From the NCBI GenBank assembly GCA_005656395.1, contig SRSI01000038.1, positions 62,001-126,000 on the forward strand: a stretch of 64,000 bases of DNA, read 5' to 3'. Position 1 is the first letter of the stretch, and the number at the start of each line of letters is the position of its first letter. A model generated the notes under the pieces. It worked only from the letters and a program-made list of their open reading frames with translations, ran no database searches and was not told the origin of the DNA. The DNA is from Strongyloides papillosus. Taxonomy: Eukaryota; Nematoda; Chromadorea; Rhabditida; Strongyloididae. Positions 13,097 through 62,429 of the stretch are shown one piece after another. The position numbers were made by a program, and so were the translations under genes.

Positions 13097-13110
13097 TCCC
13101 ATGTGGTCTA
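13097..13110 (+). pseudogene. tRNA-Glu 5' fragment (nucleotides 1-14)
   Basis: TCCCATGTGGTCTA is the start of a tRNA-Glu gene: TCCCATG pairs with the CATGGGA acceptor 3' strand at 16983-16989. It is left behind on the far side of the non-LTR element. Its last 10 bases, ATGTGGTCTA, are the left copy of the target-site duplication. Confidence 0.92.
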
Positions 13111-16100
13111 ATCTTTTATTTCATCTTATCAACAAAAATAATTAAATTACAATGTCAGGATGTTACAATAATAAAATATGTAAGATATGATAATAAATAA
13201 CTTAAATAAACCATAATAATTTCTATTAATAAGTGGTTAAAATTCAGATTAGTTTTTCAGGAGCTACACATAGGTGTCTTTTGATAATACGATTAGCTGT
13301 ATGTATTGAGATTGCAGACATTCTTTGTTTCATTCTAACATCAAGTTTCAGCTTTTCTAAGTAAACATCGAATTCCATTAACCATTCACCCAAGTTACCA
13401 ACTATTATTGGAATTATTTCTACCGAACATTTCATTCTTGATTCTAGATCTTTCTTGATATTGTTACCCGCCTTGACTGTATCTACTTCTTCAAACTTTA
13501 GTAGCTTTTCACCATTTACACTATAGCGTGCCAATTTCAGTTTCCTCTGTCTTAAAATGTTCTTCAAGGCATTAACAGAAACTTCTATCAAAAAGATTTT
13601 TCCTTCTTTTTTCAGGTGGAGATACAAGTCTGGTTTGCGGTGGTAGATTGAAGTTGATGCAGGTATTGTGTAATTCCATCTTAAGCATACTTCATCGTTT
13701 TCCAATAGTAGTGGTATTTTTTCATTTACTTTTGGTACTTTCAGTTTGTACTTTCTACACAACTCTTCATATATTAGGCGTGCTATTCTGTTATGTCTTT
13801 CCACATATAGTGTTCCGACCCAAGCATCACAGCAGCTTAATATATGGTAGCATGTTTCTTGTGCTACTTTACATTTTCTACACTTTCCTTCGTACTTTCT
13901 ATCAGCTTGTACATGAGTGTTTGTAAAAAGTTGCTCTTCAGCTGCACCGTAGGTATTTCTGAATGTCATTGCGCTAACATTTGTCTTCATGTAGGGTAGT
14001 TCAATTCTATCTTTCAGTTCAATAAATGTCTTTGCATACTTCATACTTTTACCCCAGTCTTGAAGCCATTTATCATTTTCATGCTTTCTAATAATTTCTT
14101 TAACTTTTGTTCTTGCTTCTTTTAATGAGTTGATTTGGATACCATTGATTGTAACTTCGTTAGGTTTTGAAAAATTTAATTTGAATTTAAAGATTTCAGC
14201 TAACTTTGACGCATTGTTTAAGGGATTTTGGTTGCCTTTTGACGTCATTATTTGGTACAATTCCAGTAATGGTTCCAATCTTTCATTGAATACAATATAC
14301 AAACTTTTGTTTATATAACTAATTGCAGCTTCAGAACGTAAACTTTTCATACCATATCCACCATCACTTTCATCTATATATAGACGTGCAGTTGAGGTTG
14401 AATAAAACTTGACATTATTCTTTTCCATAATACTTCTTATTTTTGTGTCAAGTTTCTCTAGATCATTCAGTAACCCATTTATTTTTTGCTTTGATTGGAT
14501 GTTCGTTGCTATATAGTTTGATGCTGGGACAATTGTTGAATTGAATAAATTCTTCATTTGTCTCACTGAAAGCTTTGACGAAAATATTTTGCTTACATTT
14601 GGTAGAATTTTCTCCTGTAAGCTAGCCATACAAATTTTGTTTAGATCGAACGTTGTTTGCGTAAGACCCAAGTACTTGTAACCATCCTTATTAACTGGGA
14701 ATGGTAGTTGACTTTCTATTTCTGTCTCAGCTTTTGGATTCTTTGCATCAATTACCAAGTCAGAACATTTCTTTTGGTTCATTTGGAGACCAACTTCATG
14801 TCCATATGAATGTAAAATCTGCTTGAGTTTATTCATTGTTGATACATCATCACTATATAGTTTGATATCATCCATAAAACTCTGATGATTCATTTCCAAA
14901 TTCTTCTTTAATTTTTGCCGCAACTTTATTTTGTTCTGTTGGTTAAGCTTAAATGAAGCAGCATTTAACACTAGAACAAATAAAATTGGGCTTAGTGAAT
15001 CCCCTTGTAAAATTCCACGTCTAATTTGAAACATGTTCCCATTCACTTCATTACCACTATTTCTATTATTTAATACCAATTGAGATTGCCATTTCTTTGT
15101 TATTTCTTTTAACAAATCTTTGATATAACTATTGATGGGCAACATGTCTACAATTCTATGCAGGCTGGATCTATAGATACTATCGAACGCTTTGCTGAAG
15201 TCAATCCAACTAGTACAGAGTTGAGTACCAGTTTTCCTTTCACTAGCTCTGAAAGTTGTGCTTGCAATTATACACTTGTCAATAGCAAGTCCTTCCAAAG
15301 TACCATTAACATTTCTTCTGATAGCAAGTTGTTCTCTGGATATAAAGTCAGGACCAATTTGTTCTGATAGTATTTCCGCTATAGTACCTGTTAGAATTTT
15401 GTAGTCTGTTGGCATCATCGTTATCGGCCTGTAGTTTTGCGGTTGTTTCCTACACCCACTTTTAAATAATAGTATTGTTCTTCCAATACAATCACTTTTC
15501 ATGATTCTTATTTCTTTATTCAATATTCCATAAACCCAATCTTGAAGATAGTTGAGAGCTGATTTAAAGTATTTGTAGCAAAACGTAGGTATCAGATCTA
15601 CGCCTGCTGCCTTAAAATTCGCACTATATTTGACTTTTAGTGCCACAATTTCTCTTATTCTATCTTTTGATAACATTTCAGGAATATTTCTATAGTTCTT
15701 TTTGACATGTTGTTCATACTCATCTAAGATAGGAGTTTTACTTGGTGGTTGACCTTCACTATACAATTCATGATAGAATTGAATTGCATCTTCCATCAGC
15801 AATTCTCCTTCTTTTCCATCGTATGATTCACCTTCTGTTTTAAGCACCTTAATTGATGGGTTCAGCTCAAAGTTTCTTCTTACATTGAGTTTTTCATTAC
15901 CAATTCTTTTTTGTTCATATTCGTTTTCAAGGTGTTTGATCATTTCTTCTGTTTGGCAATGCAGATGATCTAGCTTCACTTTCTTCTTATTCATTTCTTT
16001 GTAAAGTAATTTTGGGTTGTGCTTTGGTTTTGGAGGTGCTGATCCATTCGCCTTACACTTCCTCCTTTCCTTCTCTTCATTAATTGCTTCAATTTTAATT

Positions 16101-16922
16101 CTTAGCTTCTTTATTTTCTTTTTCAGGTTAAGTTCACTCTTTGAAATTCTTTTCTTTGGAGTACATGATCCGGTAATTTCAGACCTCAGTACTAGTCCAG
16201 CAGTCAGTATCAATTTCTTGATTGTCTTTCTACTTTTAGCTGTGTTGAAATCTTTGTACCGCTCAATCCAATTCATTAATATTTGATCAATTAACTTTAT
16301 CTTTGGATGATTCATGTTTACCCTGAATTTCACAAGTTTCTTAGGACCCTTATTTTTGCAAACTGAATCGAACAATTTATTAAATTTTATATTTAACATT
16401 TTCATTGTTTCATCTAAACAATTTTGCTCATCATTGGCCGCATTACCATCGTTGTACTGCGTCACGTCAGTTCGCGTTTGCATGATTGTTTTTCCATTGT
16501 CATCATTTTCTTTACCATTTTCTTTTGAATTTGAAATTGAAGTTGTTGGTGTAAGTTTGACTTCTTTTACAAAGTTTCTTTCTTTTCCATATTTACTTTT
16601 CAATGCTAGTGCAGTTCGCCCTGGAAATTCTTTAGTTAAGATCTCCCATGTTTCTTTTTTAGAGCCTAATTCATTTACTCTATATACTAGCCTTTCAATA
16701 TCATCATTTGTCCATTTCGTCGTCATTTTTAGTTAATTAATAGTTGATTATTGGTTATTTAGCTGGTTGATTATTACCACTGTCTACCTTTCGCTCATTG
16801 GCACTTGGAGGATTCCAAAAATTTGAAAATTTACCGGATAGCAGACTGTATCTTTAGTATAGACGGAAAATATTCAGAGGAAAATAAAAACCGTCAGCTC
16901 ACCAGCTCGACAAAAGATATAT
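13111..16922 (-). mobile_element. RLE-type non-LTR retrotransposon inserted in tRNA-Glu (element E1)
   Basis: This 3.8 kb full-length element is flanked by a perfect 10-bp duplication ATGTGGTCTA (13101-13110 and 16923-16932). The duplication corresponds to nucleotides 5-14 of the interrupted tRNA-Glu gene. The element lies antisense to the tRNA, with its 5' end next to the tRNA body. The 5' UTR is about 196 bp and the 3' UTR about 133 bp, ending ATGAAATAAAAGAT with no poly(A) tail. It has one long ORF. Restriction-like-endonuclease retrotransposons (R2, R4, NeSL, CRE relatives) are known for site-specific insertion, often into rDNA or spliced-leader genes. A tRNA target at this fixed position is read directly from the duplication. 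Confidence 0.95.
13244..16726 (-). CDS. Retrotransposon protein: Myb-like, reverse transcriptase, CCHC and RLE domains (1160 aa)
   Basis: This single ORF encodes the whole retrotransposition machine. Residues 1-50 (KWTNDDIERLVYRVNELGSK...) form a Myb/SANT-like DNA-binding domain with spaced tryptophans. A basic coiled region follows (about 170-300). The reverse transcriptase spans about 380-750, with RTILLFKSGC, NYRPITMM, SWIDFSKAFDS, RRGILQGDSLSPILF and the catalytic FMDD near residue 615. Near 949 there is a CRKCKVAQETCYHILSCC knuckle. It is followed by the restriction-like endonuclease, with RKPDL near 1027 and LIEVSVN about 16 residues later (PD-(D/E)xK type). This order and these motifs are typical of R2/R4/NeSL-like elements. 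No frameshift or stop interrupts it, and the start is the first ATG after a 196-bp leader. Confidence 0.95.
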   Translation of the reverse strand: MTTKWTNDDIERLVYRVNELGSKKETWEILTKEFPGRTALALKSKYGKERNFVKEVKLTPTTSISNSKENGKENDDNGKTIMQTRTDVTQYNDGNAANDEQNCLDETMKMLNIKFNKLFDSVCKNKGPKKLVKFRVNMNHPKIKLIDQILMNWIERYKDFNTAKSRKTIKKLILTAGLVLRSEITGSCTPKKRISKSELNLKKKIKKLRIKIEAINEEKERRKCKANGSAPPKPKHNPKLLYKEMNKKKVKLDHLHCQTEEMIKHLENEYEQKRIGNEKLNVRRNFELNPSIKVLKTEGESYDGKEGELLMEDAIQFYHELYSEGQPPSKTPILDEYEQHVKKNYRNIPEMLSKDRIREIVALKVKYSANFKAAGVDLIPTFCYKYFKSALNYLQDWVYGILNKEIRIMKSDCIGRTILLFKSGCRKQPQNYRPITMMPTDYKILTGTIAEILSEQIGPDFISREQLAIRRNVNGTLEGLAIDKCIIASTTFRASERKTGTQLCTSWIDFSKAFDSIYRSSLHRIVDMLPINSYIKDLLKEITKKWQSQLVLNNRNSGNEVNGNMFQIRRGILQGDSLSPILFVLVLNAASFKLNQQNKIKLRQKLKKNLEMNHQSFMDDIKLYSDDVSTMNKLKQILHSYGHEVGLQMNQKKCSDLVIDAKNPKAETEIESQLPFPVNKDGYKYLGLTQTTFDLNKICMASLQEKILPNVSKIFSSKLSVRQMKNLFNSTIVPASNYIATNIQSKQKINGLLNDLEKLDTKIRSIMEKNNVKFYSTSTARLYIDESDGGYGMKSLRSEAAISYINKSLYIVFNERLEPLLELYQIMTSKGNQNPLNNASKLAEIFKFKLNFSKPNEVTINGIQINSLKEARTKVKEIIRKHENDKWLQDWGKSMKYAKTFIELKDRIELPYMKTNVSAMTFRNTYGAAEEQLFTNTHVQADRKYEGKCRKCKVAQETCYHILSCCDAWVGTLYVERHNRIARLIYEELCRKYKLKVPKVNEKIPLLLENDEVCLRWNYTIPASTSIYHRKPDLYLHLKKEGKIFLIEVSVNALKNILRQRKLKLARYSVNGEKLLKFEEVDTVKAGNNIKKDLESRMKCSVEIIPIIVGNLGEWLMEFDVYLEKLKLDVRMKQRMSAISIHTANRIIKRHLCVAPEKLI

Positions 16923-16990
16923 ATGTGGTCTAGTGGTTAGGATTCGTGGTTTTCACCCACGCGGCCCGGGTCCGATTCCCGGCATGGGAA
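16919..16990 (+). tRNA. tRNA-Glu (UUC) with its first four bases replaced by element E1
   Basis: D-arm, anticodon loop (TTTTCAC), T-arm (CCGGG-TCCGATT-CCCGG) and acceptor 3' strand CATGGGA are intact. The 5' acceptor strand, however, reads ATATATG instead of TCCCATG: the first four bases come from the 5' end of the retrotransposon. The missing TCCC survives at 13097-13100. Both internal Pol III promoter boxes remain, so transcription may continue, but the acceptor stem is largely unpaired and the tRNA is probably defective. Confidence 0.9.
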
Positions 16991-17982: not shown

Positions 17983-18064
17983 GCCTTGATGCCAGAGTGG
18001 TTAATGGGACAGACTTGAAATCTGTTGGGCTCTGCCCGCGTAGGTTCGAATCCTGCTCAAGGCG
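17983..18064 (+). tRNA. tRNA-Ser (UGA)
   Basis: Acceptor GCCTTGA pairs with TCAAGGC, the anticodon loop is CTTGAAA, a long variable arm TGGGCTCTGCCCGC is present, and the T-loop is TTCGAAT. The gene is intact and intronless. Confidence 0.92.
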
Positions 18065-18399: not shown

Positions 18400-18472
18400 A
18401 GCCCTTCAGGGGGCTCGAACCCCTGACCGTTAGATTAAAAGTCTAACGCTCTACCAACTGAGCTAGGAAGGC
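18400..18472 (-). tRNA. tRNA-Lys (UUU), 5' edge used by a hAT-like MITE
   Basis: The anticodon loop is CTTTTAA and the T-arm AGGGG-TTCGAGC-CCCCT. Acceptor GCCTTCC pairs with GAAGGGC apart from one C-A mismatch and a wobble. There is no intron. Nucleotide 1 (18472) is the first base of the 8-bp duplication of the adjacent MITE, so the natural 5' flank beyond -7 has been displaced by 396 bp. Confidence 0.9.
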
Positions 18473-18479
18473 TACGGCG

Positions 18480-18875
18480 GAGTCGTATCTGATTGGCCAC
18501 CGAATAAAATTATATGGTGGCCAATCATGAGATTTTCAGTGTATATATCATGATTGGCCACCAAGCAAATATATGCTGGCAAATCATGAAATTTTCCCCC
18601 GTACATATCATGATTAGCTAGCAAGTAAATAATATATGATGTCCAATTATTAAAATTTGAAAAACAAATTTCCCTGATTTTTATTTTTTATAGTTTATCA
18701 ATTTTTTTATCATTATCATAACTTATATCCTTTCTTCTTATTTGATAAACCATTAATTATTTAATTTTTGCCTTGTTGGAATGATATTTCTTCTTTTTTC
18801 CTATTAGGAGTACTCTCAAATTTAAGAGTGCTGTCTCAAATTTGAGAAGAATTGGTGGCCAATCAGGTGTACCTC
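18480..18875 (+). mobile_element. hAT-like MITE at the 5' end of tRNA-Lys
   Basis: This 396-bp non-coding element has imperfect terminal inverted repeats (GAGTCGTATCTGATTGGCCA and, inverted, GAGGTACACCTGATTGGCCA). It is flanked by the perfect 8-bp duplication CTACGGCG (18472-18479 and 18876-18883). Internally it repeats the TGATTGGCCACC motif several times in both orientations. Eight-base duplications are typical of hAT elements. The closest copy here is 29070-29447, inverted. Confidence 0.88.
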
Positions 18876-18883
18876 CTACGGCG

Positions 18884-23099: not shown

Positions 23100-24426
23100 T
23101 ATTTTTATGAAAAAACATAGATCAAAACGGAACAGACTTCTTAATATGTACAAGATAAATAATGGTATAATCAGTAAAAGCAGTAAATTTTTATTGATAC
23201 CATTATGGAAATTTGAGGAGGTCTTTACAAAGGAAGGTAATGATGTTGGATTATTTTTTTAAGGACAATTATCAATGCAGAAGGAGGTATTATACGAAAC
23301 AGTACGAATTTGGCTTATCATAAAAAAAATATTCTTTAACAGCATTACAAGTAGCATTCCACTTTCAAGTAAGTTTATTATTCTTGTTCTTATCTTTTAT
23401 TTTGCAGAAAACTTCTCGATAGTGACATGCGTTATCACATAACAGAAAACTTAATAACATTTTTGGATAATTTTTGCAAAATATCAACATTTGTACCAAG
23501 AGCTTTTGTAAGTTTATATTTTTTGAGTTATACTTTTATAAAAATTACTTTATTGGCTTTTATATTTATAATTAATTTTAGTTTACAAAAAAAGATGAAA
23601 AATACTTGTGGATTTGCTTGGTAGACAGAAGGAGATTAATGAGTTACAAAAATGTTATGTTGATTTCCAAGGGATAAGGCACAAGTATCATCATATATCA
23701 AAAGCAATTTATAGAGCTATGAGACTATTTATTATTACAAAATATATACATGGCGAGAAAACGTAGAAAAATTCTTTGAAGCCATATTTAACATTTGTCA
23801 AATATCAAGTAACAGTTTTAAGAACACATTTGGTAGATTTTCACTCTCTTCAATTGTTCTTAAACATAAAATAACCGTAAGTATACTTAAATTAAAAAAT
23901 ATAATAGTAAATATTTCCATTTTAAAATGTTATCAATGGTGCAAATAATAATGAATAAATTGGACGTTTTTTTAATTTGCTTATTTGTATTTCTACTTTA
24001 AAGAACGCAAATTATTGCCTCCTATATAAGCAAGTTTTTTTTGTGTTTTTATTTTGTAAATAATAAAAAAAATACTCAAATTGTAAATTATTATTTTAAA
24101 AGAGTAAAAAATATATTCTGTCAAAATTCATGTATTTTAAATTCTCTGAATATTATTGTTTTCAAAAATATTTATATTTGAAAAACAGCGGTTATTTAAA
24201 AATTTTGTTTATTTTTAATTAAACTATTTATATTATTAAATTAATATAAATTAAATAAAAAATGCTTTACTATTTTATTTTCTATTTAAACTGTCAAAAA
24301 TAATTGTATTCAACATTGCTATACAATATTAAACTTAATTGTATAAAAGTCGTCATATATGCACTTATTTGATGATTTCTCTAAAACATAATTTTAATTG
24401 TGTAGAAGTAAATATCCTTTCCAACA
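23100..24426. other. Decayed coding fragments, then A+T-rich sequence
   Basis: About 23100-23880 has scattered protein-like fragments on the plus strand, in several frames, without a continuous reading frame. From 23880 to the tRNA-Leu locus nothing is supportable, apart from similarity of 23980-24330 to 19620-20090. Confidence 0.35.
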
Positions 24427-24839
24427 GGCGGAATAGCCAAATGATCTAAGGCGTCAGACTCTGTAATCCTGGGGGATTCTGGGGAGCCCTTGAGGCTCCC
24501 GGGCTTTGATGTTACAACACAAGACTTTATATAAGATTTTATTAAGCAAATGTTACAATATAGTATATAGAAATAAGTAAATATATATATTTAAAAGGTA
24601 TTCTCTGATATTCCTTAGTTTTACTGATCTGATCTGAGACTGATAAAATATTCTTTATAAGTTCCTTTTATACTCCTTGAGGTAATGGGCGTATACTTCT
24701 TGATATGAACTTACATACATTACATCCGACACAGCTCCCATGGTTCACAACTCAAGTACATAACTTATGTAGGTTCTGCATCATCACTGGATATTGTGAT
24801 CTCGTTATCAAGGCGTGGGTTCAAATCACACTTTCGTCA
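24427..24839 (+). pseudogene. tRNA-Leu (CAA) gene split by a solo LTR
   Basis: The 5' half GGCGGAATAGCCAAATGATC...CAGACTC ends at 24461. The 3' half resumes with ACTCAAG at 24750, continues through a short intron-like segment (about TACATAACTTATGTAG), a long variable arm and the T-loop TTCAAAT, and closes with acceptor TTTCGTC, which pairs with GGCGGAA. Removing the LTR and one ACTC copy restores a tRNA-Leu(CAA) with an intron 3' of the anticodon. The LTR lies inside the anticodon loop. Confidence 0.9.
24462..24749 (-). mobile_element. Solo LTR (288 bp) in the tRNA-Leu anticodon loop
   Basis: The element is bounded by TGTGAACC...GGATTACA (minus orientation), with TG...CA ends and a 4-bp duplication ACTC on both sides. 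It carries a TATA-like TATAAAAGG, an AATAAA, and a hairpin near its 3' end (CTGGGAGCC/GGGCTCCCCAG type). It differs from the copy at 31502-31789 at about four positions by eye, so both insertions are young. It is unrelated to the 165-bp LTRs of the gypsy element at 50-55 kb. Confidence 0.9.
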
Positions 24840-25217
24840 ATACGTTTTGATAGTTTTTATATTTTCTAATAAAATAATTTTAAAACGTTTTCATTAAGTA
24901 AGAATTTTTATAATTTTATGTTACAATAATATTTTAACGTTATTTTTTCTCTACTGTTTTTCAATAAAAAAATTAAGATAGTATAATTTTAAATTTATAT
25001 TATAAATAGAATAAAACAATATTTAACTAATAATATATTTTTACTTTTAAAAAAATTCTATAATTATTTCAAAATTAAATTTTTTTATTTACATTTATTA
25101 AGAATAACAAAACAGCTGGTTAATTTAATATTTATAAATCGTTTTTAGTGATTATATAACTTAATAAAACATATGTAGTAAACCCTTAGTGGAAAAAATA
25201 AACGGTGGCCGGAACGT
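24840..25217. other. A+T-rich intergenic stretch
   Basis: Nothing supportable was seen. Confidence 0.5.
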
Positions 25218-25242
25218 GTTTGGGTGCCCGAGTGGTTAAGGG

Positions 25243-26529
25243 GGTAGCACGTCAATCTTACAATGCGTTTTTTGCCAAAAATCACACAGTGATTTTTCAC
25301 CATACTTCGTGTCAGGATTATGTTTTATTAAAATGAAACATTAATGTAAATTTCTTTCATTATAAACAAAAATAACATGATTTTTTAATATTTTTTTGAT
25401 GATTTAACGTATTACTTATGTTATTGTTGTTTTATTGGTAAATTAAATTCATATAGTAACATTTGGAATATAAAAGATATTTTATGTTATTTTGGTAATC
25501 TATGTATAAACTAATAATTAAGATGTAAGTAAATTTTTGTTAATTATTAAGCAAATTGTTAATAAAATTCAATTGCTAAACATAATTACTCTAGATTTTA
25601 CAAATTTGATGTATAGATTTTTATTATGTCTTGAATAACGTTAGCAAAATTATTTTAAACTAGAAAATATGGTATTAATTTTAAATAAAAACAAATTTTT
25701 ACTTTGTAAGGTAAATATTATTCAATTTAAACATTACAACAAAATTAATCTAAATTTTTACTATTCTGAAAATATAGGATTTTTACTGCATCATAAATAA
25801 TGTTAACAAAAATAATGTCATATACCTAAAAGATATTTTTTGATATTTTGCAAGATAGTTATTAATAAAATATAAATATCAAGTATATTTACTTTAGATT
25901 TTACCAATTTAAGTATGGATTTTTTACTACATCATAATAATGATAACAAAATTATTATCCTTGTGAAATATATACTTTTTGAGACTGAAACACCAATTTT
26001 AAGGTTATAAAATTCTAAGGGCGATTTCTTTGTTAATATACGTACTAGATATGTTTGTACATTAGAAAAATTAGAATACTCATATTAAATAAAAATATGT
26101 AACACTAATACAATTATTATTGTTAAATATAATTTATTTGTGTTTTAAAAAATTTCTTTATACCAAATATGATCAAAATAATGTATATTTTCATAGGTTA
26201 ACAATTTATCACTTTATATTTCATTGGAAAAATGTAAATATTAATCATTATAAGATCACTTTCATTTTATTTAAAGTGACATAAAAATTATAAGTGAATG
26301 AAATGAAATAGGTGTGGGGTAGGTACTTTTACTATGTCGTTGGTTAATAAAACCCAGTTTCAGTTTTAGTTACTGAGGCTGGGGCAATTTGGTATTTTGT
26401 ATAATGGTAGTGCATATATTATATGTATTACTATTATATAAAATCCTAGATTGCATTTTTTGCCAAAAATCACACAATCTTCTAGATTGCGTTTTTTGAC
26501 AAAAATTTTTGAAAGATTGACGTGTACCC
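25243..26529 (+). mobile_element. MULE-like MITE (1287 bp) in tRNA-Ser
   Basis: The ends are GGTAGCACGTCAATCTT and, inverted, GGGTACACGTCAATCTT. The 9-bp duplication GGTTAAGGG flanks it (25234-25242, 26530-26538). Subterminal sequences repeat GCGTTTTTTGCCAAAAATCA. It has no coding region. Near its right end (26277-26395) lies module N, with the TTRATAAAACCCAGTTTC core. The copy at 44248-45393 is the same subfamily in inverse orientation. Nine-base duplications and variable TIRs fit Mutator-like elements. Confidence 0.9.
26277..26395 (+). repeat. Module N, copy in the tRNA-Ser MITE
   Basis: Core features are AAGTGACATAAAAATTATAA, GAATGAAATGAAATAGGTGT, and TAATAAAACCCAGTTTC followed by CTGAGG. 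The same block occurs at 42490-42605 and, inverted, at 43063-43180 and 44398-44515. Diverged copies lie at about 46436-46560 and 57296-57410. Confidence 0.75.
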
Positions 26530-26595
26530 GGTTAAGGGGCCGGCCTGCTAAGCCGTTGGGCTTTGCCCGCGCGAGTTCGAATCTCGTCTCAAACG

Positions 26596-29061: not shown

Positions 29062-29069
29062 GGCGTCCG

Positions 29070-29447
29070 GAGGTACACCTGATTGACCACCAATTCTTCT
29101 CAAATTTGAGAGTACTCCTAATAGGGAAAAAGAAGAAATATCATTCCAACAAGGCAAAAATTAAATAATTAATAGTTTATCAAATAAAAGGAAAGAATAT
29201 AAGTTATGATAATAATAAAAAAAAATTGAAAACCTATAAAAAATAAAAATCAGGGAAATTTGTTTTTCAAATTTTAATAATTCGGCATCATATATTATTT
29301 ACTTGCTAGCCAATCACGATATGTACGAGGGAAAATTTCATGATTTGCTAGCATATATTTGCTTGGTGGTCAATCATGATATATACACGGAACATCTAAT
29401 GATTAGCCACCATATAATTTTATTCAATGGCCAATCAGATACGACTC
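29070..29447 (-). mobile_element. hAT-like MITE at the 5' end of tRNA-Arg
   Basis: This 378-bp inverted copy of the 18480-18875 element has the same ends (GAGGTACACCTGATTG... and ...ATACGACTC). It is flanked by the perfect 8-bp duplication GGCGTCCG (29062-29069 and 29448-29455). The last base of the right duplication, 29455, is nucleotide 1 of the tRNA-Arg gene. The copy at tRNA-Lys shows the same register. Confidence 0.9.
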
Positions 29448-29454
29448 GGCGTCC

Positions 29455-30249
29455 GATCTTGTACACTCAGAAAGAAAACATCACCTCAAGGTGATGATTT
29501 CGTCGGTTTTTGTGAATATACTAATTCATCACCTTGAGGTGATGATTTTAAAATATATACAAAAGAGATACTTTCCCCCAATAAAATGTCTTAGAACATT
29601 TTTTTTGATAATACCTCCATTTATAGTTATATTAACAATAAATAAAACAAACAGATAAAATATTTTTATTATAAAGAAATATTATAACAATAAACATCAA
29701 ATCATATAATAATTTAATAAAACTAACCTTGGTTGAGTGATTATCCATATCTAGAAGCTTGAACAGTAAAAATTGTCCATCCTATAAATAAAAACATTTA
29801 TAAACGTTAATTAAAACAATAACTTACTTGTATACTTGAATATTCCTGATAATTTTGAAATCTAAGTGACAATCCCATGCAAATGCCTAAAAAAATACCT
29901 AGATTTTAAGTAAAGAAAACTTATCTTTATCTGTAGTTCATTCCATTTCTAAATAATTAGTCGGCACTCCTTAATTTACACCTAAAATAGAAATATTAAC
30001 AAGTTAAAATTAGTAGAAAAGAATTACGAAATACAATGTTTTGACAACTTGATATATATGATTCCAATTTTTTGTTGTACCTTTGTAAGACATCTTCCTG
30101 TATACTAAATTCTAAATAAAATCCTCACCTTAAGGTGATGGTTTTAAAAACATCACCTTGAGGTGAGGATTCTGTTCTGAGTGTAGCGTAATGGCTAACG
30201 CGTCTGCCTTCGGAGCAGAAGATTGCAGGTTCGAGTCCTGTCAAGATCG
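29455..30249 (+). pseudogene. tRNA-Arg (UCG) gene split by a TA-duplicating element
   Basis: GATCTTGTA (29455-29463) is the 5' acceptor strand plus nucleotides 8-9. The gene resumes at 30184 with TAGCGTAATGGCTAACGCG, anticodon loop CTTCGGA, T-loop TTCGAGT and acceptor CAAGATC, which pairs with GATCTTG. Removing 29464-30185 restores a complete tRNA. The same gene also carries a hAT-like MITE abutting nucleotide 1, so it has been hit twice. Confidence 0.92.
29464..30183. mobile_element. 720-bp DNA transposon (CACTCAG ends, TA duplication) in tRNA-Arg
   Basis: The ends are CACTCAGAA and its inverse TTCTGAGTG, with a TA duplication at tRNA nucleotides 8-9. Inside each end lies a near-palindrome (TCACCTCAAGGTGATGA and TCACCTTGAGGTGAGGA types), repeated twice per end. 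The CACT start plus a 2-bp TA duplication would suit a CMC/Mirage-like or a mariner-like element; I cannot decide. On the minus strand, 29700-29900 holds short protein-like stretches bounded by GTAAGT and TTTATAG, probably debris of transposase exons. Confidence 0.82.
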
Positions 30250-31501: not shown

Positions 31502-31789
31502 TGTGAACCATGGGAGCTGTGTCGGATGTAATGTATGTAAGTTCATATCAAGAAGTATACGCCCATTACCTCAAGGAGTATAAAAGGAACTTATAAAGAA
31601 TATTTTATCAGTCTTAGATCAGATCAGTAAAACTAAGGAATATCAGAGAATACCTTTTAAATATATATATTTACTTATTTCTATATACTATATTGTAACC
31701 TTTGCTTAATAAAATCTTATATAAAGTCTTGTGTTGTAACATCAAAGCCTGGGAGCCTCAAGGGCTCCCCAGAACCCCCCAGGATTACA
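31502..31789 (+). mobile_element. Solo LTR (288 bp), second copy
   Basis: It starts TGTGAACC and ends GGATTACA, with a 4-bp duplication GTAG on each side (31498-31501, 31790-31793). TATAAAAG (about 31580), AATAAA (about 31708) and a G+C-rich hairpin near the 3' end mark it as a promoter-bearing LTR. No internal region or partner LTR lies nearby, so it is a solo LTR left by recombination. No tRNA gene is disrupted here. Confidence 0.88.
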
Positions 31790-31793
31790 GTAG

Positions 31794-41200: not shown

Positions 41201-42732
<1,532 letters not shown>

Positions 42733-42930
42733 GACGCTACTACCACTGAGCCAATGTGGCTGTGAATCCGAGCACACCCTGATTGGTAATCACGCTTAAT
42801 TCTTTATACAGTCAATTTTAGAAGTCAAGATTTGCAATATTGGCTAATTGAATAGTAAATTATTTATAACTGCATTTCTCAGTATCCTAAGTTTTTTATG
42901 CCAATTTGTTGAATTATCAAATCTCTGAAT

Positions 42931-43644
42931 GGGTGCACGTCAACTATTCAAAATTTTCTGTCAAAAAACGCGATTTAGAAAAATAACGGTTTTTTGACAA
43001 AAAATGCATTTTAGAAATTGCATAGTGAAAACAGTGTATTTCCACTATGCAATAAATAAAATGCAAACCTCAGTATTCTCGACTATCGAGAAACTGGGTT
43101 TTATAAACCGACGACATCGGAAATGTACCAACCCTACACTTATTTCATTTCATTCACTTAAAATTTTTCTGTCACTTTAAAAAAAACAAAAGTACACATA
43201 GTATATACATTTTCCCAAAAAATGGTAATAATTTTCTTCCTTTGTCTTTTAAAAAAATAAATAAATCTTGTGTTTTTTTTCAAAAATATGACATGCTTAA
43301 AGTAAAACTGTATAAACAAAAAAATATTGCATCGAAAATTTTTTTTTTAAAAAATTTTTATTATGACTGTATCAGTAGAATTTTGTTAAAAAATAATTCG
43401 TAGAATATTTCTTCCAATTCCTTATATGAGGGCTAGACTATGCGATGCTAGTTAAAGGGAGGCCACGGGTCAAGACTTATTAACAAATTGATAAAAATAG
43501 TGTAATTTTGATGTTTTTTTATTATTATATTTGTTAATACTCCACACTTAAACTTATTTTGAAAAGATACTTTTAACACAAATTTAGAGTTTTATGTATC
43601 ACGGCGAATTTGTAAAAAAGACATTGTAGAGTTGACGTGTTACC
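42931..43644 (-). mobile_element. MULE-like MITE (714 bp) next to a tRNA-Ile half
   Basis: The ends are GGGTGCACGTCAACTATTCA and, inverted, GGTAACACGTCAACTCTACA. Internally it mirrors 42028-42732 (modules N and M inverted). The right border continues into tRNA-Ile at GTTGGTTAG, but the left border (…AATCTCTGAAT) has no matching duplication or tRNA sequence. One flank has therefore been lost or exchanged, plausibly by recombination between the two neighbouring copies. Confidence 0.82.
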
Positions 43645-43724
43645 GTTGGTTAGCGCGTGGTACTTATAAGTTAAAGCTGTTCTAAGCAATGCCAAGGTCA
43701 CCAGTTCGAGCCTGGTATGGGGCA
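43645..43724 (+). pseudogene. tRNA-Ile (UAU) 3' part with intron, 5' part missing
   Basis: It begins in the D-loop (GTTGGTTAGCGCG). The anticodon loop CTTATAA is followed by about 20 intron-like bases, then ATGCCA, T-arm ACCAG-TTCGAGC-CTGGT and acceptor ATGGGGC. The expected 5' acceptor strand GCCCCAT was not found at the other end of the adjacent MITE or elsewhere nearby. The break position in the D-arm matches the other MULE-MITE insertions. Confidence 0.85.
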
Positions 43725-44185: not shown

Positions 44186-44188
44186 CGC

Positions 44189-44242
<54 letters not shown>

Positions 44243-45414
44243 AATTGGGGTGCACGTAAATCCACCAAAAATTTTTGTCAAAAAACGCAATCTAGAGGAT
44301 TGTGTGATTTTTGGCAAAAAATGCAATCTAGGATTTTATATAATAGTAATATATATATAATATATACACTACTATTATACAAAATACCAAATTGACCCAG
44401 CCTCAGTACTAAACTGAAACTGGGTTTTATAAACCGACGTGCCGGACACATACATATATTATATAGTTTTTCGTTTCATTCGCACATAATTTTTATGTCA
44501 CTTTGAAAAAAATGAAAATGATCTTATAATGATTAATATATACATTTTTTTAATAAAATATAAAGTATTTAAATGTATAAATCATTAAATATATTCATTA
44601 TTTTGATAATAGTTAAGATAAAGAAATTTTTTAAAACACATTTTATTATATTTAACAATAATAATTGTATTAGTGTTATGTTTTTTTATTTAATATGAGT
44701 TTTCTAATATTTTCAATGGACAAACATGTCCAACATATATTAAAAAATAAGTCGTCCTTAGAATTTTATATCTTTAAAATCGGTGTTTTAATCTCAAGAA
44801 ATATATATTTTTTACAAGAATAATAATTTTGTTAACATTATTTATGATGTAGTCAAAATCTGTATTTTCAGAGTAGTAAAAATTTAGATTAATTTTGTTT
44901 TAATGTTTTAATTGAATAATAATCACCTTACAAGTAAAAAATTGTTTTTTATTAAAATTAATACCAATTTTTCTAGTTTAAAATAATTTCGCTAACATTA
45001 TTCATGACATAGTAAAAATCTATACTTCAAATTTGTAAAATCTAAAGTAATTTTGTTTAACAGTTAAATTTTATTAATCATTTGCTTAATAATTTACAAA
45101 ATTTTATCTTATATTTTAATTATTAATGTATACATAGATTACCAAAATAACATAAAATATCTTTTGTATTCAAAGTGTTATTATATAAATTTTTTTTACC
45201 AATAAAATAATGGCAACATAAATAACACACTCAATTATCAAAAAAATACTAAAAATTACATATTATCTTTGTTTTTAATAAAAGAAACTTATATCTATGT
45301 TTTAATTTATAAGCATAATCCTGACACAAAAATTGGTAAAAAATCACTGTGTGATTTTTGGCAAAAAACGCATTGTAGGATTTACGTGCTACCAACCAAT
45401 TGCGCCACGGAGGC
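44186..45414 (-). pseudogene. tRNA-Asn (GUU) gene split by a MULE-like MITE
   Basis: The 3' part (44186-44247: anticodon loop CTGTTAA, T-arm GGTGG-TTCAAGC-CCACC, acceptor CGGGGGC) and the 5' part (45394-45414: GCCTCCGTGGCG and the duplicated site) join after removing the insert and one AACCAATTG copy. In tRNA sense the duplication is CAATTGGTT, nucleotides 13-21, in the D-arm. Confidence 0.92.
44248..45393 (-). mobile_element. MULE-like MITE (1146 bp) in tRNA-Asn
   Basis: The ends are GGGTGCACGTAAATCCACC and, inverted, GGTAGCACGTAAATCCTACA. The 9-bp duplication AACCAATTG flanks it (44239-44247, 45394-45402). It is the inverted counterpart of the tRNA-Ser MITE (25243-26529): subterminal GCGTTTTTTG repeats, module N at 44398-44515 and long stretches of the A+T-rich interior match. 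It has no coding region. Confidence 0.9.
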
Positions 45415-46319: not shown

Positions 46320-46610
46320 ATTTTAATATCTAAAAACTTTAAAAATATTGTTATTATTTATAAAATAGTTTTTTTTCGGCATTTTTATTTAAACATTGAC
46401 CTCTTATATCCATACACATACATTTGCTGCGTATTAATTGACATAAAAATTGTAGGCGAATGAAATATAAAAAATGCGGGTTGATGATTATTATAAAATT
46501 GTCGGTTTAAATAACCCAATTTAGAGGTAAAATTGAATTCTGAGGCTGATTCTTCAAATTTCAAAATTTTGGAATGAAGCTAGAAATAGTTTCTAATATT
46601 TTTAACATTT
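46320..46610 (+). repeat. Dispersed repeat with diverged module N (copy 1)
   Basis: It shares TTGTTATTATTTATAAAATA, a CGGCATT segment, GGCGAATGAAATATAAAA-like and GGTAAAATTGAATTCTGAGG blocks with 57180-57460, in the same order and orientation. The module N core (TCGGTTTAAATAACCCAATT) is recognisable but diverged. Confidence 0.6.
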
Positions 46611-46840: not shown

Positions 46841-46960
46841 GACTTACACCACTAATAGTTTCCAAGAAGTTTCTTATCCAAGTATTAAAATATCTTTCGA
46901 CTGATTCGCTTTAGAGATCGGACGGGATTCCGTGTATTTCAGCCGAATATGAGCATAAAA
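46841..46960 (-). rRNA. 5S rRNA-like gene (120 nt)
   Basis: On the minus strand the 120-nt sequence runs from TTTTATGCTC to GGTGTAAGTC. It carries GGAATCCCGTCCGATCTC, AGCGAATCAGTCG and AATACTTGGATAAGAAAC at the spacing of 5S rRNA. The ends can pair (TTATGC with GTGTAA, allowing G-U), and a T-run terminator (TCTTTTTTTT) follows directly. Several usually invariant bases differ, for example TAAAGCGAATCA for GAAGCTAAGCA. It may be a divergent functional gene, a pseudogene, or a 5S-derived SINE head. The other copy lies about 790 bp away on the same strand. Confidence 0.6.
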
Positions 46961-50302: not shown

Positions 50303-50467
50303 AAGTAATAAATTTATTGGGTTGACGACTCTATAATAATATATAACAATTAATAAAATATAAAAACACCTCTTATAAAATAAAATTAAGTTAAAATGAC
50401 GAATAAGCAATTTCTTTAAGTTTATATAGTAAACTTAATCCCTTCATTGTCATCAATATTACCACTT
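50303..50467 (-). repeat. 3' LTR (165 bp)
   Basis: Matches 55175-55339 except at two sites (GGGTTGAC against GGATTGAC, and AATCCCTT against AATTCCTT). Confidence 0.92.
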
Positions 50468-50498
50468 TGCCCTCTCCCATATGGTTATTCATAATTTG

Positions 50499-55055: not shown

Positions 55056-55174
55056 CTACAGAGAAACTCAAATTCTGGCCTTATTCTCTTACTTGACTAG
55101 TCTACTTCGATCACTGATCACTAGAAGTAATGAATTCACCTATTACACCAAGTAATAAATCTACTTTATTACAA

Positions 55175-55339
55175 AAGTAATAAATTTATTGGATTGACGA
55201 CTCTATAATAATATATAACAATTAATAAAATATAAAAACACCTCTTATAAAATAAAATTAAGTTAAAATGACGAATAAGCAATTTCTTTAAGTTTATATA
55301 GTAAACTTAATTCCTTCATTGTCATCAATATTACCACTT
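55175..55339 (-). repeat. 5' LTR (165 bp)
   Basis: Direct repeat of 50303-50467; it carries A+T-rich TATA-like sequence (TTTATATAGTAAACTT). Confidence 0.92.
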
Positions 55340-58680: not shown

Positions 58681-58752
58681 CTCTCTGGCGGGGAATCGAA
58701 CCCCGGTCTCGCACGTGACAGGCGCGGGTACTCACCACTATACTACCATTCC
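58681..58752 (-). tRNA. tRNA-Asp (GUC) with its first four bases replaced by element E2
   Basis: The anticodon loop is CTGTCAC, the T-arm CGGGG-TTCGATT-CCCCG, and the acceptor 3' strand CCAGAGA, which needs TCTCTGG at the 5' side. The genome instead shows GGAATGG: only the last three acceptor bases are native, and the first four are supplied by the retrotransposon's 5' end. This is the same truncation point as in tRNA-Glu at 16.9 kb. Internal promoter boxes survive, but acceptor pairing is lost. Confidence 0.9.
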
Positions 58753-61700
58753 TTTCTTTTAAGTTCTGGGAGAACGTTGTTTTAGAATATTTTTCTAATA
58801 TTTTCTACTACAATTAAGAAACTGGAAGAAATCAACGAAAGCAGCTAAAATTACTCGCAAAATTCGTTGATCGAGGCTGGAATGGCACCTACTAACAAAT
58901 TAACAAACAATGAAGCTAAGAAAGCACTCCTGTGGACTCCAGATGAAGTAAAATTATTGTTAGAATTGTATGACAAAACTGATGACAATTTAACTAAAAC
59001 AAAAAGGTTAGAACAACAAATATGTCATCATTTTCGTAATCGTACAATAAAAGCAATGTTGACGAAATTGAGAGAAACTAAAGAGGAAAAAGGAGGAAAA
59101 TGTGAAGTTAAAGTGAAGAAGAATGAGGAAAAATTTGAGGAAAAATTTAATTTTGATAATTATGAAGAGATAAAAATGGAAAGGGAAGTTAAAAGTAAAA
59201 AAGAAGAGGAAAGGCCAATTGTCGATGAATTTAACGATGAGGAATTATTGAAAGTGGAAAAATTATTTCTCAAGTTTGTCAATACGATTAATTATCAAAG
59301 GAAAAAAGGGAAATCAACCAGAAGGCAAAAATTTAATGTTTCAAAGGATTCTTTTCAAATTTTCTTAGTGGACAGTATTCTGAACAAACACATTTTGCTG
59401 ACTGAAAGCAAAGTTAAGGATGACATTAAGAGGAGAAGTATCATCAAAACATTGATATGTGCAGCTGGTTTAACCCTTAGGAAATTAGTATGTGGTAAAC
59501 TTGGTAATAATAAATACAACTCCAAGATCAACCAACTTAGGAAAAAAGAAAGGAAGATGATGAACTGTATAGAAGACTTAAAGTATTTGATAGAAACGAA
59601 TAAATGTAGACACAATATTGGGAGAAGGTTGAGGAAAGCCAAAGTAACCCCAACTGAAATGATTGAGGATTACTACAACAAGTTAAGATATATTAGAAAT
59701 GAAATTACAGCATGCTTGGAGGAACACAAAAAGGCAATTTTGAGATCAAAATTTGAGTTAACGCCAAGCATTAAAATCATTTCAAATATCCAAAATCTTA
59801 ATGAAGAGGAAGAACTCCCAAAAGAAGAAGAATTTGTCAAATACTATAAAGAATTATTTACGAGTAAAGATGTGGATGGAAAGGAAACACCGCATCTCGA
59901 CAATTGGTTGAAGGAATTTAGTAAGACATTGAATGTGGACTGGACTATAAGTGACAATGAGATTCTCGAGGCTTTGAAATACTGTGGTAATTTTAAAGCT
60001 CCGGGACCAGATATGGTGATGAATGTTTGTTACAAATGGTTCAAATCTGCACAGAATTACCTAATCAGGTGGATCAAATCAACTTGGTATGGTGAATACA
60101 GAATAAATAAGAAAGATGCAAGTGCAGTCACATACATGATTTGGAAAGGAAACGACAAGCCAAAGAACGATGTAAAATCATTCAGGCCAATTTCTTGTTT
60201 GAACTGTGATTTCAAGCTGCTGAACAAACTTATTGCAAATAAAGTTTATGAATCAGTGGAGAAAATTCTGCCCATGAATCAAATGGCAGTAATTAAAGGT
60301 AAACATGGAACATGCGAAGCCTTACTCCTGGACAAATCACTGGCTCAATCAATGAAATTTAGAAGAAGGAAAGATGTGAAAGAAATATGGTGCTCATGGA
60401 TTGACTTCAGTCAATGTTATGACTCAATAAGTCATAAATGTTTGAAGAAAATGATACAAAGTATAAAGGCTCCACCAACTATTCATAAAGTTATTTTGGA
60501 TGGAATTGATAGCTGGAACATATCAATTTGCAGTGGGAAAAGTGTCTCCAAAGCTAAAATACCGGTCAAATCTGGTATCCTTCAGGGAGAGGTGGCCAGC
60601 CCTTTGTACTTTGTATTGTTAACCGGTGGAATATCTTATGCCTTGAACAAGGAAGAACAAGTACCAATTGAAACAGTGACACCAAGCAATACTTTGAAAA
60701 TCAACCATATCAGCTTTATGGATGACTATCAACTATATGCCACATCACAGAAGAAAGTTGAGAAATTAACTGTTAAGCTGAAGGAGATAGCAGATGAAAT
60801 GAATTTGAAGCTAAATCCTCAAAAATGTGGTATATATGGCTCAGATGATCTTGGAAAGAAGTTAATGTTGAAAGAAAGTTCATTAAACTTTCCGTATACT
60901 TCTGAGTACAAGTATCTGGGTTTGGTGGAAAACTCGTTGGACTTGAAGGATGTCAATATTCAACTGGTTAAGGACAAAATACTATCAAAATGCTCAACTA
61001 TATTTGAATCTAGACTCACTACACATCAAAAAAGGAGAGCATTTAATAGTACAATATCCCCATGTGCAGCATATTATCTTGGAAATTTGGTAACCAATGA
61101 ATGTTCAATTCAAGGACTGTTGAATGAATGTAAGAAATTCGATCAAATGGTCAGAAATCAATTGGTTAGTCAAAATATCAAGAAGCTTCAAGTATCAAAT
61201 AGTAGAATCTACCTGCCTAAAGAGTACAACTCTCTGGGATTTAATGAAATTGAAATTGAAGTAGCCACCAATATTATCAGGAAAGCTTGCTACATCAAAA
61301 AGAGAGAAACTCTTAGGGGGGTAGACAAACTATACATTGCAATGTCAAATAATGGTCATAGGAACACCCTTAGTGATGCTTCATATATCACTAAGAATTA
61401 TTCTAACTTCAAAATAAATTGGAATATCATGGGTGTTGTGAAAGATGAAAATAATATTCTTCTGGATGCGAAGAAAATTATTGAAGACATCAAAGAGAGG
61501 AGGAAAAACTTCTGGCTGGACCATTGGCAGAAAGGAAACATGACATATGCAAATGAAGCAATCAAAAAAGAATTCTATCTTCCTAATCTGAACATCGATT
61601 CCAAATATCTCATGTTGTGCTATGCAGGATCAGAGGAACAAATCATCTACAATGGACATGTAAGTCTAGCTAGCCAATCTACACCAACTAGTAGATTGTG

Positions 61701-62419
61701 CAGGAAGTGTAAGAAATATGAAGAAACTTCGTATCATGTAGCTAGCGTTTGTGAATTCCATAAGAAGAATCTGCATCTCATGCGTCACAATAGTGCAGTT
61801 TACCACATAATAACGGAACTTTGCCGAATCATGAAAGTCAAATGTCCTTTAAGGTATCCAGAAGCATCAGGTATAATAAAAAGTGGTGATATGAAGATTG
61901 CTGCTGGCGTGAAATACACTTTTGGAACAGCAAGGATATATCATAATAAGCCTGACTTGGTATGGTATACTCCAGATGCAATTTATGTTTTAGAAGTTAG
62001 TATTTCATCGCTGAAAAATGTGAAATCTCAAATCAAAATGAAAACTGCTAGATATGCAGTAAATTCAACTGAGAAATTGGAAAATTTTGCTGCTCTGGAT
62101 AATTTGATGAAAGGAGAAAACTTTGTGGACATTTTAAGTCAGAAAGAAAACTTCAAAAAAGTTAAATTTATGCCTCTCATCTTCTGCACTTATGGTGAGA
62201 TACCCAAAGAAACAATGAAACATTTGAAAGAACTCAACTTCACCAAAGAAAAGATCAAAACAATTGCTTCATCAATCGCTCGTCTAACTGGAAGAACCCT
62301 CAAAGCTCATTTTATTAATTAATTAACTTTTATACGTGTTATTCTACCTCAAAGGTATACTAATTGCTAGCTTAATTGTAATTTTTTGTAAATTATAATG
62401 TAACAAGTTTTAAATAAAA
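58749..62419 (+). mobile_element. RLE-type non-LTR retrotransposon at tRNA-Asp (element E2)
   Basis: This 3.67 kb element is flanked by the perfect 10-bp repeat TATACTACCA (58739-58748 and 62420-62429), nucleotides 5-14 of tRNA-Asp on the opposite strand. The 5' UTR is about 133 bp and the 3' UTR about 97 bp, ending TTTAAATAAAA. It is oriented antisense to the tRNA with its 5' end against the tRNA body, as in E1. A third related element starts immediately after the right repeat. Confidence 0.94.
58882..62322 (+). CDS. Retrotransposon protein: Myb-like, reverse transcriptase, CCHC and RLE domains (1146 aa)
   Basis: It has the same architecture as the 1160-aa protein at 13-17 kb but is clearly diverged. 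The N-terminal segment has LLWTPDEVKLLLELYDKT, a Myb-like helix pattern. The RT contains YMIWKGNDKPKNDVKSFRPI, SWIDFSQCYDS, KSGILQGEVASPLYF and FMDD near residue 612. The knuckle CRKCKKYEETSYHVASVC lies near 939. The endonuclease has NKPDL near 1022 and YVLEVSIS just after. The first ATG in frame is at 58882; the frame extends five codons upstream only through a non-ATG codon. It is intact, without stops, so probably recently active. Confidence 0.95.
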   Translation: MAPTNKLTNNEAKKALLWTPDEVKLLLELYDKTDDNLTKTKRLEQQICHHFRNRTIKAMLTKLRETKEEKGGKCEVKVKKNEEKFEEKFNFDNYEEIKMEREVKSKKEEERPIVDEFNDEELLKVEKLFLKFVNTINYQRKKGKSTRRQKFNVSKDSFQIFLVDSILNKHILLTESKVKDDIKRRSIIKTLICAAGLTLRKLVCGKLGNNKYNSKINQLRKKERKMMNCIEDLKYLIETNKCRHNIGRRLRKAKVTPTEMIEDYYNKLRYIRNEITACLEEHKKAILRSKFELTPSIKIISNIQNLNEEEELPKEEEFVKYYKELFTSKDVDGKETPHLDNWLKEFSKTLNVDWTISDNEILEALKYCGNFKAPGPDMVMNVCYKWFKSAQNYLIRWIKSTWYGEYRINKKDASAVTYMIWKGNDKPKNDVKSFRPISCLNCDFKLLNKLIANKVYESVEKILPMNQMAVIKGKHGTCEALLLDKSLAQSMKFRRRKDVKEIWCSWIDFSQCYDSISHKCLKKMIQSIKAPPTIHKVILDGIDSWNISICSGKSVSKAKIPVKSGILQGEVASPLYFVLLTGGISYALNKEEQVPIETVTPSNTLKINHISFMDDYQLYATSQKKVEKLTVKLKEIADEMNLKLNPQKCGIYGSDDLGKKLMLKESSLNFPYTSEYKYLGLVENSLDLKDVNIQLVKDKILSKCSTIFESRLTTHQKRRAFNSTISPCAAYYLGNLVTNECSIQGLLNECKKFDQMVRNQLVSQNIKKLQVSNSRIYLPKEYNSLGFNEIEIEVATNIIRKACYIKKRETLRGVDKLYIAMSNNGHRNTLSDASYITKNYSNFKINWNIMGVVKDENNILLDAKKIIEDIKERRKNFWLDHWQKGNMTYANEAIKKEFYLPNLNIDSKYLMLCYAGSEEQIIYNGHVSLASQSTPTSRLCRKCKKYEETSYHVASVCEFHKKNLHLMRHNSAVYHIITELCRIMKVKCPLRYPEASGIIKSGDMKIAAGVKYTFGTARIYHNKPDLVWYTPDAIYVLEVSISSLKNVKSQIKMKTARYAVNSTEKLENFAALDNLMKGENFVDILSQKENFKKVKFMPLIFCTYGEIPKETMKHLKELNFTKEKIKTIASSIARLTGRTLKAHFIN

Positions 62420-62429
62420 TATACTACCA

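Follow-up and report, generated by a model that had tools for sequence, protein, structure and literature searches.

Mobile elements of several kinds in transfer RNA genes of the nematode Strongyloides papillosus

How did nine of the 19 transfer RNA (tRNA) loci within 64 kb of the genome of Strongyloides papillosus come to be occupied by inserted elements, and are such genes sought out by the elements concerned? The stretch, hereafter the window, comprises positions 62,001 to 126,000 of contig SRSI01000038.1 (C14:62001-126000) in an assembly of 58,232,448 bases in 79 contigs. A preliminary description had counted nine of 19 occupied loci and had proposed five unrelated transposon classes, each with a position of its own. 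The count was borne out by ARAGORN (11 loci), Rfam (14 loci) and a B-box scan, from which the rest were read. Occupied are the genes for Glu, Lys, Leu, Ser-GCT, Arg-TCG, Thr-TGT, Ile-TAT, Asn, and Asp, of which Arg-TCG holds two elements. Boundaries and target site duplications (TSDs) come from reading the sequence, and a script re-located most of them. Copies of the families studied are spread over many contigs in a genome search, and the use of RNA polymerase III (Pol III) genes by both DNA transposons and retrotransposons, with class-specific footprints, recurs outside the window. It is very probable that several unrelated elements have independently evolved integration into Pol III genes, mainly tRNA genes, which are safe targets because they are multicopy. 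The parts of this reading that were observed directly are the positions, the duplications, the breadth of isotypes and the independent copies.

Two occupied genes hold retrotransposons without long terminal repeats (LTRs) that are classed by their restriction-like endonuclease (RLE). They were read as follows (nt, nucleotide of the tRNA gene; ORF, open reading frame; RT, reverse transcriptase):

13097..13110, forward strand: nt 1-14 of tRNA-Glu, the 5' piece on the left side of RLE1; its last 10 nt are the duplication ATGTGGTCTA
13111..16922, reverse strand: RLE1, non-LTR retrotransposon antisense to tRNA-Glu; ORF 13247-16732, 1162 aa, with RT, CCHC and PD..K endonuclease
16923..16989, forward strand: remainder of tRNA-Glu(TTC), from nt 5 (ARAGORN, Rfam)
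58686..58748, reverse strand: tRNA-Asp(GTC) body adjoining the 5' end of RLE2 (Rfam and reading)
58749..62419, forward strand: RLE2, non-LTR retrotransposon antisense to tRNA-Asp; ORF 58849-62319, 1157 aa
62420..62429, reverse strand: target duplication TGGTAGTATA, common to RLE2 and a second RLE family (L006)

The position at nt 5-14 that had been proposed for these elements holds for both, as RLE1 duplicates ATGTGGTCTA, which is nt 5-14 of tRNA-Glu, and RLE2 duplicates TGGTAGTATA, which is nt 5-14 of tRNA-Asp. A wrong-half tRNA-Asp at the 5' flank of RLE2 was considered and rejected, because a second RLE family is inserted at the same duplication: L006, which is 27% identical to RLE2, starts at TGGTAGTATA and extends beyond the end of the window to the 5' piece of tRNA-Asp. 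Tandem pairs of different RLE families in one tRNA gene were found for Asp (in the window) and for Glu (on C5).

The RT domain PF00078 is present in both window ORFs and in all eight RLE proteins scanned, one of which (L005) is RLE2 itself. Ten aligned RLE proteins have invariant residues C951, H963, C968, P1034, D1035, and K1066, corresponding to a CCHC knuckle and, after it, a PD-(D/E)xK endonuclease close to the C terminus. Solved R2 proteins align with RLE1 (best E 1e-16); in its RT region, RLE2 is closer to LINE-1 (E 2e-16) than to R2 (E 1.5e-6). Judged by sequence, both qualify as RLE non-LTR retrotransposons of the R2/R4/NeSL type; a named clade is left aside, the only tree built being an internal one. 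No Ulp1-like protease (Peptidase_C48) was detected at E <= 0.05 in the eight RLE proteins scanned, which include L015 and L021 from families at a spliced-leader (SL)-like motif. RLE1 differs from an S. papillosus protein by 19 mismatches in 1,066 columns, the 9% difference consisting mostly of gaps, and its copies L002 and L003 are 99-100% alike.

From one protein search with 41 rows, 30 RLE loci were analysed, including RLE1 (L001) and RLE2 (L005). The hits L147 and L148 (about E 1e-17) were excluded; by eye, they have an N-terminal exonuclease-endonuclease-like region and look like long interspersed nuclear elements (LINEs) of the apurinic endonuclease (APE) type. Thirteen of the 30 loci are in tRNA genes, namely for Glu (L001, L002, L003, L007, L025), Asp (L004, L005, L006), Gly (L012, L013, L014, L030), and Pro (L028). 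All 13 are antisense to the tRNA, and their target duplications measure about 10-17 bp. At least seven families, 22-39% identical to each other and at least 97% identical within, are represented among 12 of these insertions; L030 is a remnant and was not assigned. Ten further loci (L015-L024) are at the SL-like motif, two (L008, L026) are near large-subunit ribosomal RNA, and five (L009, L010, L011, L027, L029) were assigned to no target class. Recognition encoded by the element, and target-primed reverse transcription as in R2, are suggested by the isotype specificity and by the constancy of position and orientation. Most likely, each family would nick the A-box region (nt 5-28) of one isotype by its own DNA-binding and endonuclease domains, and reverse transcription would be primed at the nick, antisense to the tRNA. 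Target-primed reverse transcription is established for R2, and we infer it for the present elements.

The second insertion mode is that of miniature inverted-repeat transposable elements (MITEs) with TSDs of 9 bp:

25218..26595, forward strand: tRNA-Ser(GCT) split by a 9-bp-TSD MITE at 25243-26529; TSD GGTTAAGGG, nt 18-26
41974..42764, reverse strand: tRNA-Thr(TGT) split by a 9-bp-TSD MITE at 42028-42732; TSD at nt 20-28
42931..43724, forward strand: MITE at 42931-43644, the right end of which adjoins the 3' part of tRNA-Ile(TAT); the left flank is not the corresponding tRNA half (rearranged)
44186..45414, reverse strand: tRNA-Asn(GTT) split by a 9-bp-TSD MITE at 44248-45393; TSD at nt 13-21

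These elements had been described as MITEs of the Mutator-like element (MULE) type at nt 13-28, a position that is correct for the Ser, Thr, and Asn copies with tRNA at both ends; the Ile copy has it at one end only. Their TSDs of about 9 bp and inverted ends fit MULEs. In the genome search (49 rows) both ends were fetched for 18 copies and one end for four, and the window copies were added. Joining the flanks of the 18 two-ended copies gave a tRNA across the join in 14 (ARAGORN). Altogether, 16 of the 18 are in tRNA genes and one more in a gene for signal recognition particle (SRP) RNA, so that 17 of 18 are in Pol III genes; L111 is the only one outside a recognised Pol III gene. The SRP insertion (L093/L094) ends at 1784180, and the SRP gene, one of seven found genome-wide, starts at C1:1784177. 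For L093, the joined flanks and an intact SRP gene have 90% identity over 127 nt, and the half gene matches the SRP model with E 3e-4, which is below the cut-off of the family. One-ended copies adjoin 5' pieces of tRNA-Ser (L122), tRNA-Val (L123), and tRNA-Lys (L124); for the one-ended copy L121 a tRNA piece was not found. In 17 measured copies, including those of the window, insertions are in both orientations, and positions range from nt 13-21 to nt 49-57 with nt 15-23 the commonest (five copies). The Glu gene of L103 is also split by an element of the CACTA-like group described below. L115/L116 has part of tRNA-Glu at one end and part of tRNA-Tyr at the other, which suggests recombination between two inserted copies.

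A source of the 9-bp MITEs was sought among MULE genes. The MULE ORF of the window (9493-11196) was rejected, as no such end with up to two mismatches is present between 2193 and 18616. Genome-wide, 25 MULE domain matches and 27 exact right ends of the 9-bp group were counted, none of them linked in the stretches read. At L152, a 9-bp-group end in tRNA-Ser is found about 2 kb past pieces of a MULE ORF and is not linked to them.

MITEs with TSDs of 8 bp insert at the 5' edge of the gene:

18400..18472, reverse strand: intact tRNA-Lys(TTT) with a MITE at its 5' edge (ARAGORN, Rfam)
18472..18883, reverse strand: 8-bp-TSD MITE; duplications CGCCGTAG at 18472-18479 and 18876-18883
29062..29455, forward strand: 8-bp-TSD MITE copy at the 5' edge of tRNA-Arg(TCG); duplications GGCGTCCG

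In the window both duplications, CGCCGTAG at Lys and GGCGTCCG at Arg, are at about -7/+1, as had been proposed, and the Lys gene is undamaged. The genome search gave 51 rows, and 22 places were read (20 fetched and two window copies). Many of the remaining rows in this list, in that of the 9-bp group, and in the 83 rows obtained for the CACTA-like group are fragments from element interiors, self-matches in inverted orientation or second pieces of the same element. A tRNA gene is at one end in 16 of the 22 places: Lys twice, Leu, Ser, Gly, Trp, Phe, Val three times, Arg-TCT three times, Ala, Arg-CCT, and Arg-TCG. Rfam confirmed Lys (L045), Trp (L049), and Arg (L063), and BLAST confirmed Val (L055) and Arg (L064). 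The three Val copies have common left flanks, the Val gene of L055 being itself cut after nt 22, and two of the three Arg-TCT copies have common flanks; merged by flank, 13 events at 11 anticodon types are left. In ten of ten copies measured automatically, the duplication is within -9 to +2 of the tRNA; three of the ten duplications contain two or three mismatches.

The accompanying label of hAT-like is doubtful. The mostly exact duplications of 8 bp fit hAT, and TSDs of 8 bp are also found in other superfamilies. One of the places, L062, is the left end of a longer stretch (L146/L149, C6:1578195-1582300), which encodes in separate frames a MULE domain (E 1.5e-9) and a Ulp1-type protease (Peptidase_C48, E 8e-15). 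No hAT transposase was found with 8-bp-group ends in this one long element read, whose right end was not found. The family is therefore more likely a MULE than a hAT family, as suggested by one example with one shared end. MULE ORFs near tRNA-Lys genes (L150-L152) were rejected as a source, as no 8-bp-group ends were found there.

The fourth mode is represented in the window by one element:

29455..30249, forward strand: CACTA-like element (about 29464-30181) that interrupts tRNA-Arg(TCG) at nt 8-9, with TA as 2-bp duplication

It had been described as a TA element at nt 8-9, of which the position stands. Duplications of the group at tRNAs are TA, TG, AT, TT, and one mismatched pair (L070), and elsewhere also AA, AC, and CA; a Tc1/mariner identity, with its strict TA duplication, was therefore rejected. 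CACTA/EnSpm elements have CACT-type ends and TSDs of 2-3 bp. Since duplications other than TA occur and the ends are CACTCAG...CTGAGTG, the group looks CACTA-like rather than mariner-like, a superfamily name based on general criteria; no transposase turned up, and none was searched for. Twelve of 21 places read (20 fetched and the window copy) are in tRNA genes, or 11 after merging one duplicated pair; L069 (tRNA-Ile) was judged by eye from one end and scores 27.8 bits in Rfam, below the cut-off of 29. In 11 copies the duplication could be placed, at nt 7-20. The entry 'Gln_CTG' of the tRNA library is an ARAGORN artefact of CACTA-like sequence that matches nine CACTA-like copies without tRNA; no count uses it.

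A fifth class, an LTR element in the anticodon loop, had also been proposed:

24426..24843, forward strand: tRNA-Leu interrupted by a solo LTR, which starts at 24462 and ends near 24748; by eye, the split is in the anticodon loop

The insertion itself is confirmed, but it is a one-off, and the family was rejected as a tRNA-targeting class. The other window copy (31502-31790) is in none of the 19 tRNA loci, and flank reading, ARAGORN and BLAST with the tRNA library revealed a tRNA in none of 20 further copies fetched, most of which are only about 75% alike to the window copy and some of which have element interior on one side, so that one host flank was judged. With one of 22 copies in a tRNA gene, the family serves as an internal negative control, and four insertion modes instead of five are supported. 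A separate LTR retrotransposon, Gypsy-like, is located at 50303-55339 of the window; its direct repeats of 165 nt are 99% alike, and it has an open frame of 1518 aa.

The frequencies of the DNA elements at tRNA genes are far above chance. With the tRNA background set deliberately high, at 3,467 loose first-look candidates as an upper bound (0.43% of the genome), binomial tails are 1.5e-36, 3e-29, and 3e-22 for counts of 17/22, 11/16, and 11/18, which are slightly off the final counts and treat copies as independent. Ten stretches of 4 kb at 500 kb of ten contigs contained no tRNA. When flanks of different copies were joined as a control, a tRNA was called across 14 of 106 CACTA-like and 21 of 123 9-bp joins, which is read as a consequence of positions common to the copies. 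A tRNA call on the join alone is thus no proof, and the duplication was examined too. For the 8-bp group the control gave 0 of 87, which is uninformative because the tRNA is on one side of the join.

Occupancy was counted genome-wide for one isotype, Asp. Twenty-three of 28 tRNA-Asp 3' halves have an intact 5' half (at most three mismatches). The five without one are at RLE or 9-bp elements (C14:120681, C14:1147341, C1:2805931, C67:32375, and, by position only, C7:855989). A sixth interrupted locus, C67:19626, has a 9-bp insertion at nt 38-46, and a lone 5' half at C57:55409 is unexplained. About six or seven of 30 Asp loci are accordingly occupied, compared with nine of 19 tRNA loci in the window, which looks denser in occupied tRNAs than the genome. 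The window is nonetheless no isolated junk cluster with tRNA genes untouched elsewhere, since the families are on many contigs and five of the 28 Asp 3' halves lack an intact 5' half. The proposal that surplus tRNA copies tolerate loss holds for Asp, where the 23 intact copies mean that spare copies exist.

Several observations weigh against targeting. The copies sampled are the best-scoring matches and not a random sample. Some have common flanks (L052/L054/L055, L063/L064, L076/L077, L001/L002, L089/L095), which lowers the number of independent events; L001 and L002 have one flank that is 88% alike over about 1.3 kb and another that is also alike, and these may be one event, and L089 and L095 share a site with flanks 85% alike over 75 nt. 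In the 8-bp group, four tRNA copies have imperfect duplications (two mismatches in L047 and L058, three in L059, none recognisable in L049), and six of 22 places have no tRNA in their flanks (L051, L056, L057, L060, L061, L062; three of them one-ended), as have nine of 21 CACTA-like places (L066, L068, L078-L084). A repeat search again found none, so that targeting is either partial or the flanks have been lost. An autonomous partner was not found for the 9-bp and CACTA-like groups, of which a CACTA-like transposase was not searched for. That transposases bind Pol III factors is a step we infer, and preferential survival at harmless sites may add to the pattern.

No fixed sequence seems to be read by the DNA groups, and each has a preferred place relative to the gene: the 5' edge for the 8-bp group, nt 7-20 for the CACTA-like group, and mostly nt 13-32 for the 9-bp group. 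Their duplications have no common motif by eye, while the position is conserved. Together with the mixed isotypes and the SRP insertion, this suggests that the DNA groups dock on the Pol III complex or on the DNA that it opens. The transposase could be tethered to the assembled Pol III/TFIIIB/TFIIIC complex or to open DNA made by it; such docking is rather likely, the tethering and the domains responsible for it being putative.

Dada DNA transposons were reportedly described by Kojima and Jurka in 2013. In the parts of a later account that were available, they insert into tRNA genes, where nt 8-13 in the A box are the site of several lineages and the surroundings of the anticodon that of some, and also into 5S and small nuclear RNA genes (Kojima 2022, PMC8869645). 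Direct reading of a degenerate A-box or tRNA sequence by the transposase, independently of Pol III factors, has been suggested for Dada from target similarity, and the same is conceivable here, if doubtful. The present footprints also cluster on or near the A box, as those of several Dada lineages do (PMC8869645, in the parts available). However, the listed duplications have no common motif by eye, the 9-bp group is also found at nt 24-57 and in the SRP gene, and the 8-bp group enters the 5' flank, which varies among genes.

Random insertion, with only the copies in spare tRNA genes surviving selection in a compact genome, is very improbable. Asp copies are plentiful and the genome is compact (58 Mb), but survival cannot explain positions within a few bases (-9/+2; nt 7-20), the LTR family of the same genome lacks tRNA in 20 of 20 sampled copies, and tRNA-free AT-rich DNA is plentiful, yet all but one of the 18 two-ended 9-bp copies are in recognised Pol III genes. 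Multiplication of a few true insertions by segmental duplication would account for the common flanks listed above, but as sole cause it is refuted, since 13 8-bp events at 11 anticodon types and 11 CACTA-like events are left after merging and the 9-bp tRNA copies, save L089/L095, differ in isotype or position.

Independently evolved targeting of Pol III genes may, more tentatively, be one side of a wider arrangement in which assembled Pol III genes form a general germline landing platform. The attraction would come from the host complex or its chromatin, and the groups would dock on different faces (start site, A box, gene body), giving a three-layer nest of an SL-like block in 9-bp MITEs in tRNA genes, followed by NeSL-like retrotransposons.

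Targeting of this kind has several known counterparts. In yeast, the LTR retroelements Ty1 and Ty3 are directed to Pol III genes, where they integrate close to the start site and outside the body of the tRNA gene, whereas the present elements are inside the gene or at its edge and the LTR family sampled does not target tRNAs. tRNA genes are known as safe integration sites, used by retroelements of amoebae and yeasts and, in fish, by Dada. The DNA groups resemble Dada in that DNA transposons are within tRNA genes. In the parts of the Dada account available, TSDs are 6-7 bp and families are named for their main tRNA type, not always strictly (PMC8869645), unlike the 8, 9, and 2 bp, the mixed isotypes and the SRP gene found here; membership in Dada was rejected by TSD length, and a Dada transposase was not searched for. 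The dictyostelid elements TRE5, TRE3, DGLT-A, and Skipper are a further case of convergent tRNA targeting in a compact genome, which according to the passages available evolved at least six times with family-specific distances; unlike the present elements, they comprise retrotransposons only, located up- or downstream of the gene and not inside (PMC5006619). The RLE families resemble NeSL-1_TV and the R2/R4/NeSL clades as site-specific RLE retrotransposons. As far as the available text goes, NeSL-1_TV is an RLE-type element specific for tRNA-Pro, and nematode NeSL families encode an N-terminal Ulp1-like protease (PMC4640811). One of the present elements is likewise in tRNA-Pro; in contrast, the genes for Glu, Asp, Gly, and Pro are used by at least seven families of a single animal, and the protease was undetected in the eight proteins scanned. 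For S. ratti, a study that deals with small RNAs and transposable elements names two tRNA genes as small-RNA targets and does not mention insertion into tRNA genes in the passages available (PMC9203780). Among the matches listed, judged by titles and the beginnings of abstracts and excluding preprints and most subscription papers, neither tRNA targeting by CACTA-like or MULE elements nor tRNA-targeting elements in Strongyloides were found.

As far as these limited searches show, the sharing of Pol III genes by three DNA-transposon groups and seven RLE families in one animal genome is new. In one small animal genome, DNA transposons with TSDs of 8, 9, and 2 bp have the same type of target gene as at least seven RLE families, with narrow but distinct footprints. 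Their comparison could tell whether Pol III targeting evolves via sequence recognition or via docking on the transcription complex, and the elements are a source of candidate tRNA-directed integrases.

The 9-bp MITEs carry a block resembling an SL gene, in the window at 26258-26361, 42471-42574, 43090-43193, and about 44423-44540. It consists of an upstream stretch and the exon GGTTTATAAAACCCAGTTT, with a replaced splice donor in those MITE copies that were read. The block matches a putative nematode SL RNA gene of 5S arrays; Rfam gave no SL match. In Caenorhabditis elegans, SL1 genes are located with 5S genes, according to the passages available (PMC1657053). Two RLE families (L015-L024) are inserted after GGTTTATAAAACC of the SL-like exon, as are SL-specific NeSL elements, with the Ulp1 protease undetected. 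Two of these loci are in the SL-like block of 9-bp MITEs that are themselves in tRNA-Ala (L015) and tRNA-Ser (L017). L019-L024 are on C24 at about 1.4-43 kb, where L021-L024 form near-identical repeats of about 5.5 kb, each with a 5S gene, a diverged 5S copy and an RLE ORF. In the window, a likely original-type SL-like copy near 46502 is beside a diverged 5S ribosomal RNA copy (46841-46960), which scores 48 bits compared with 95 bits for the array copies.

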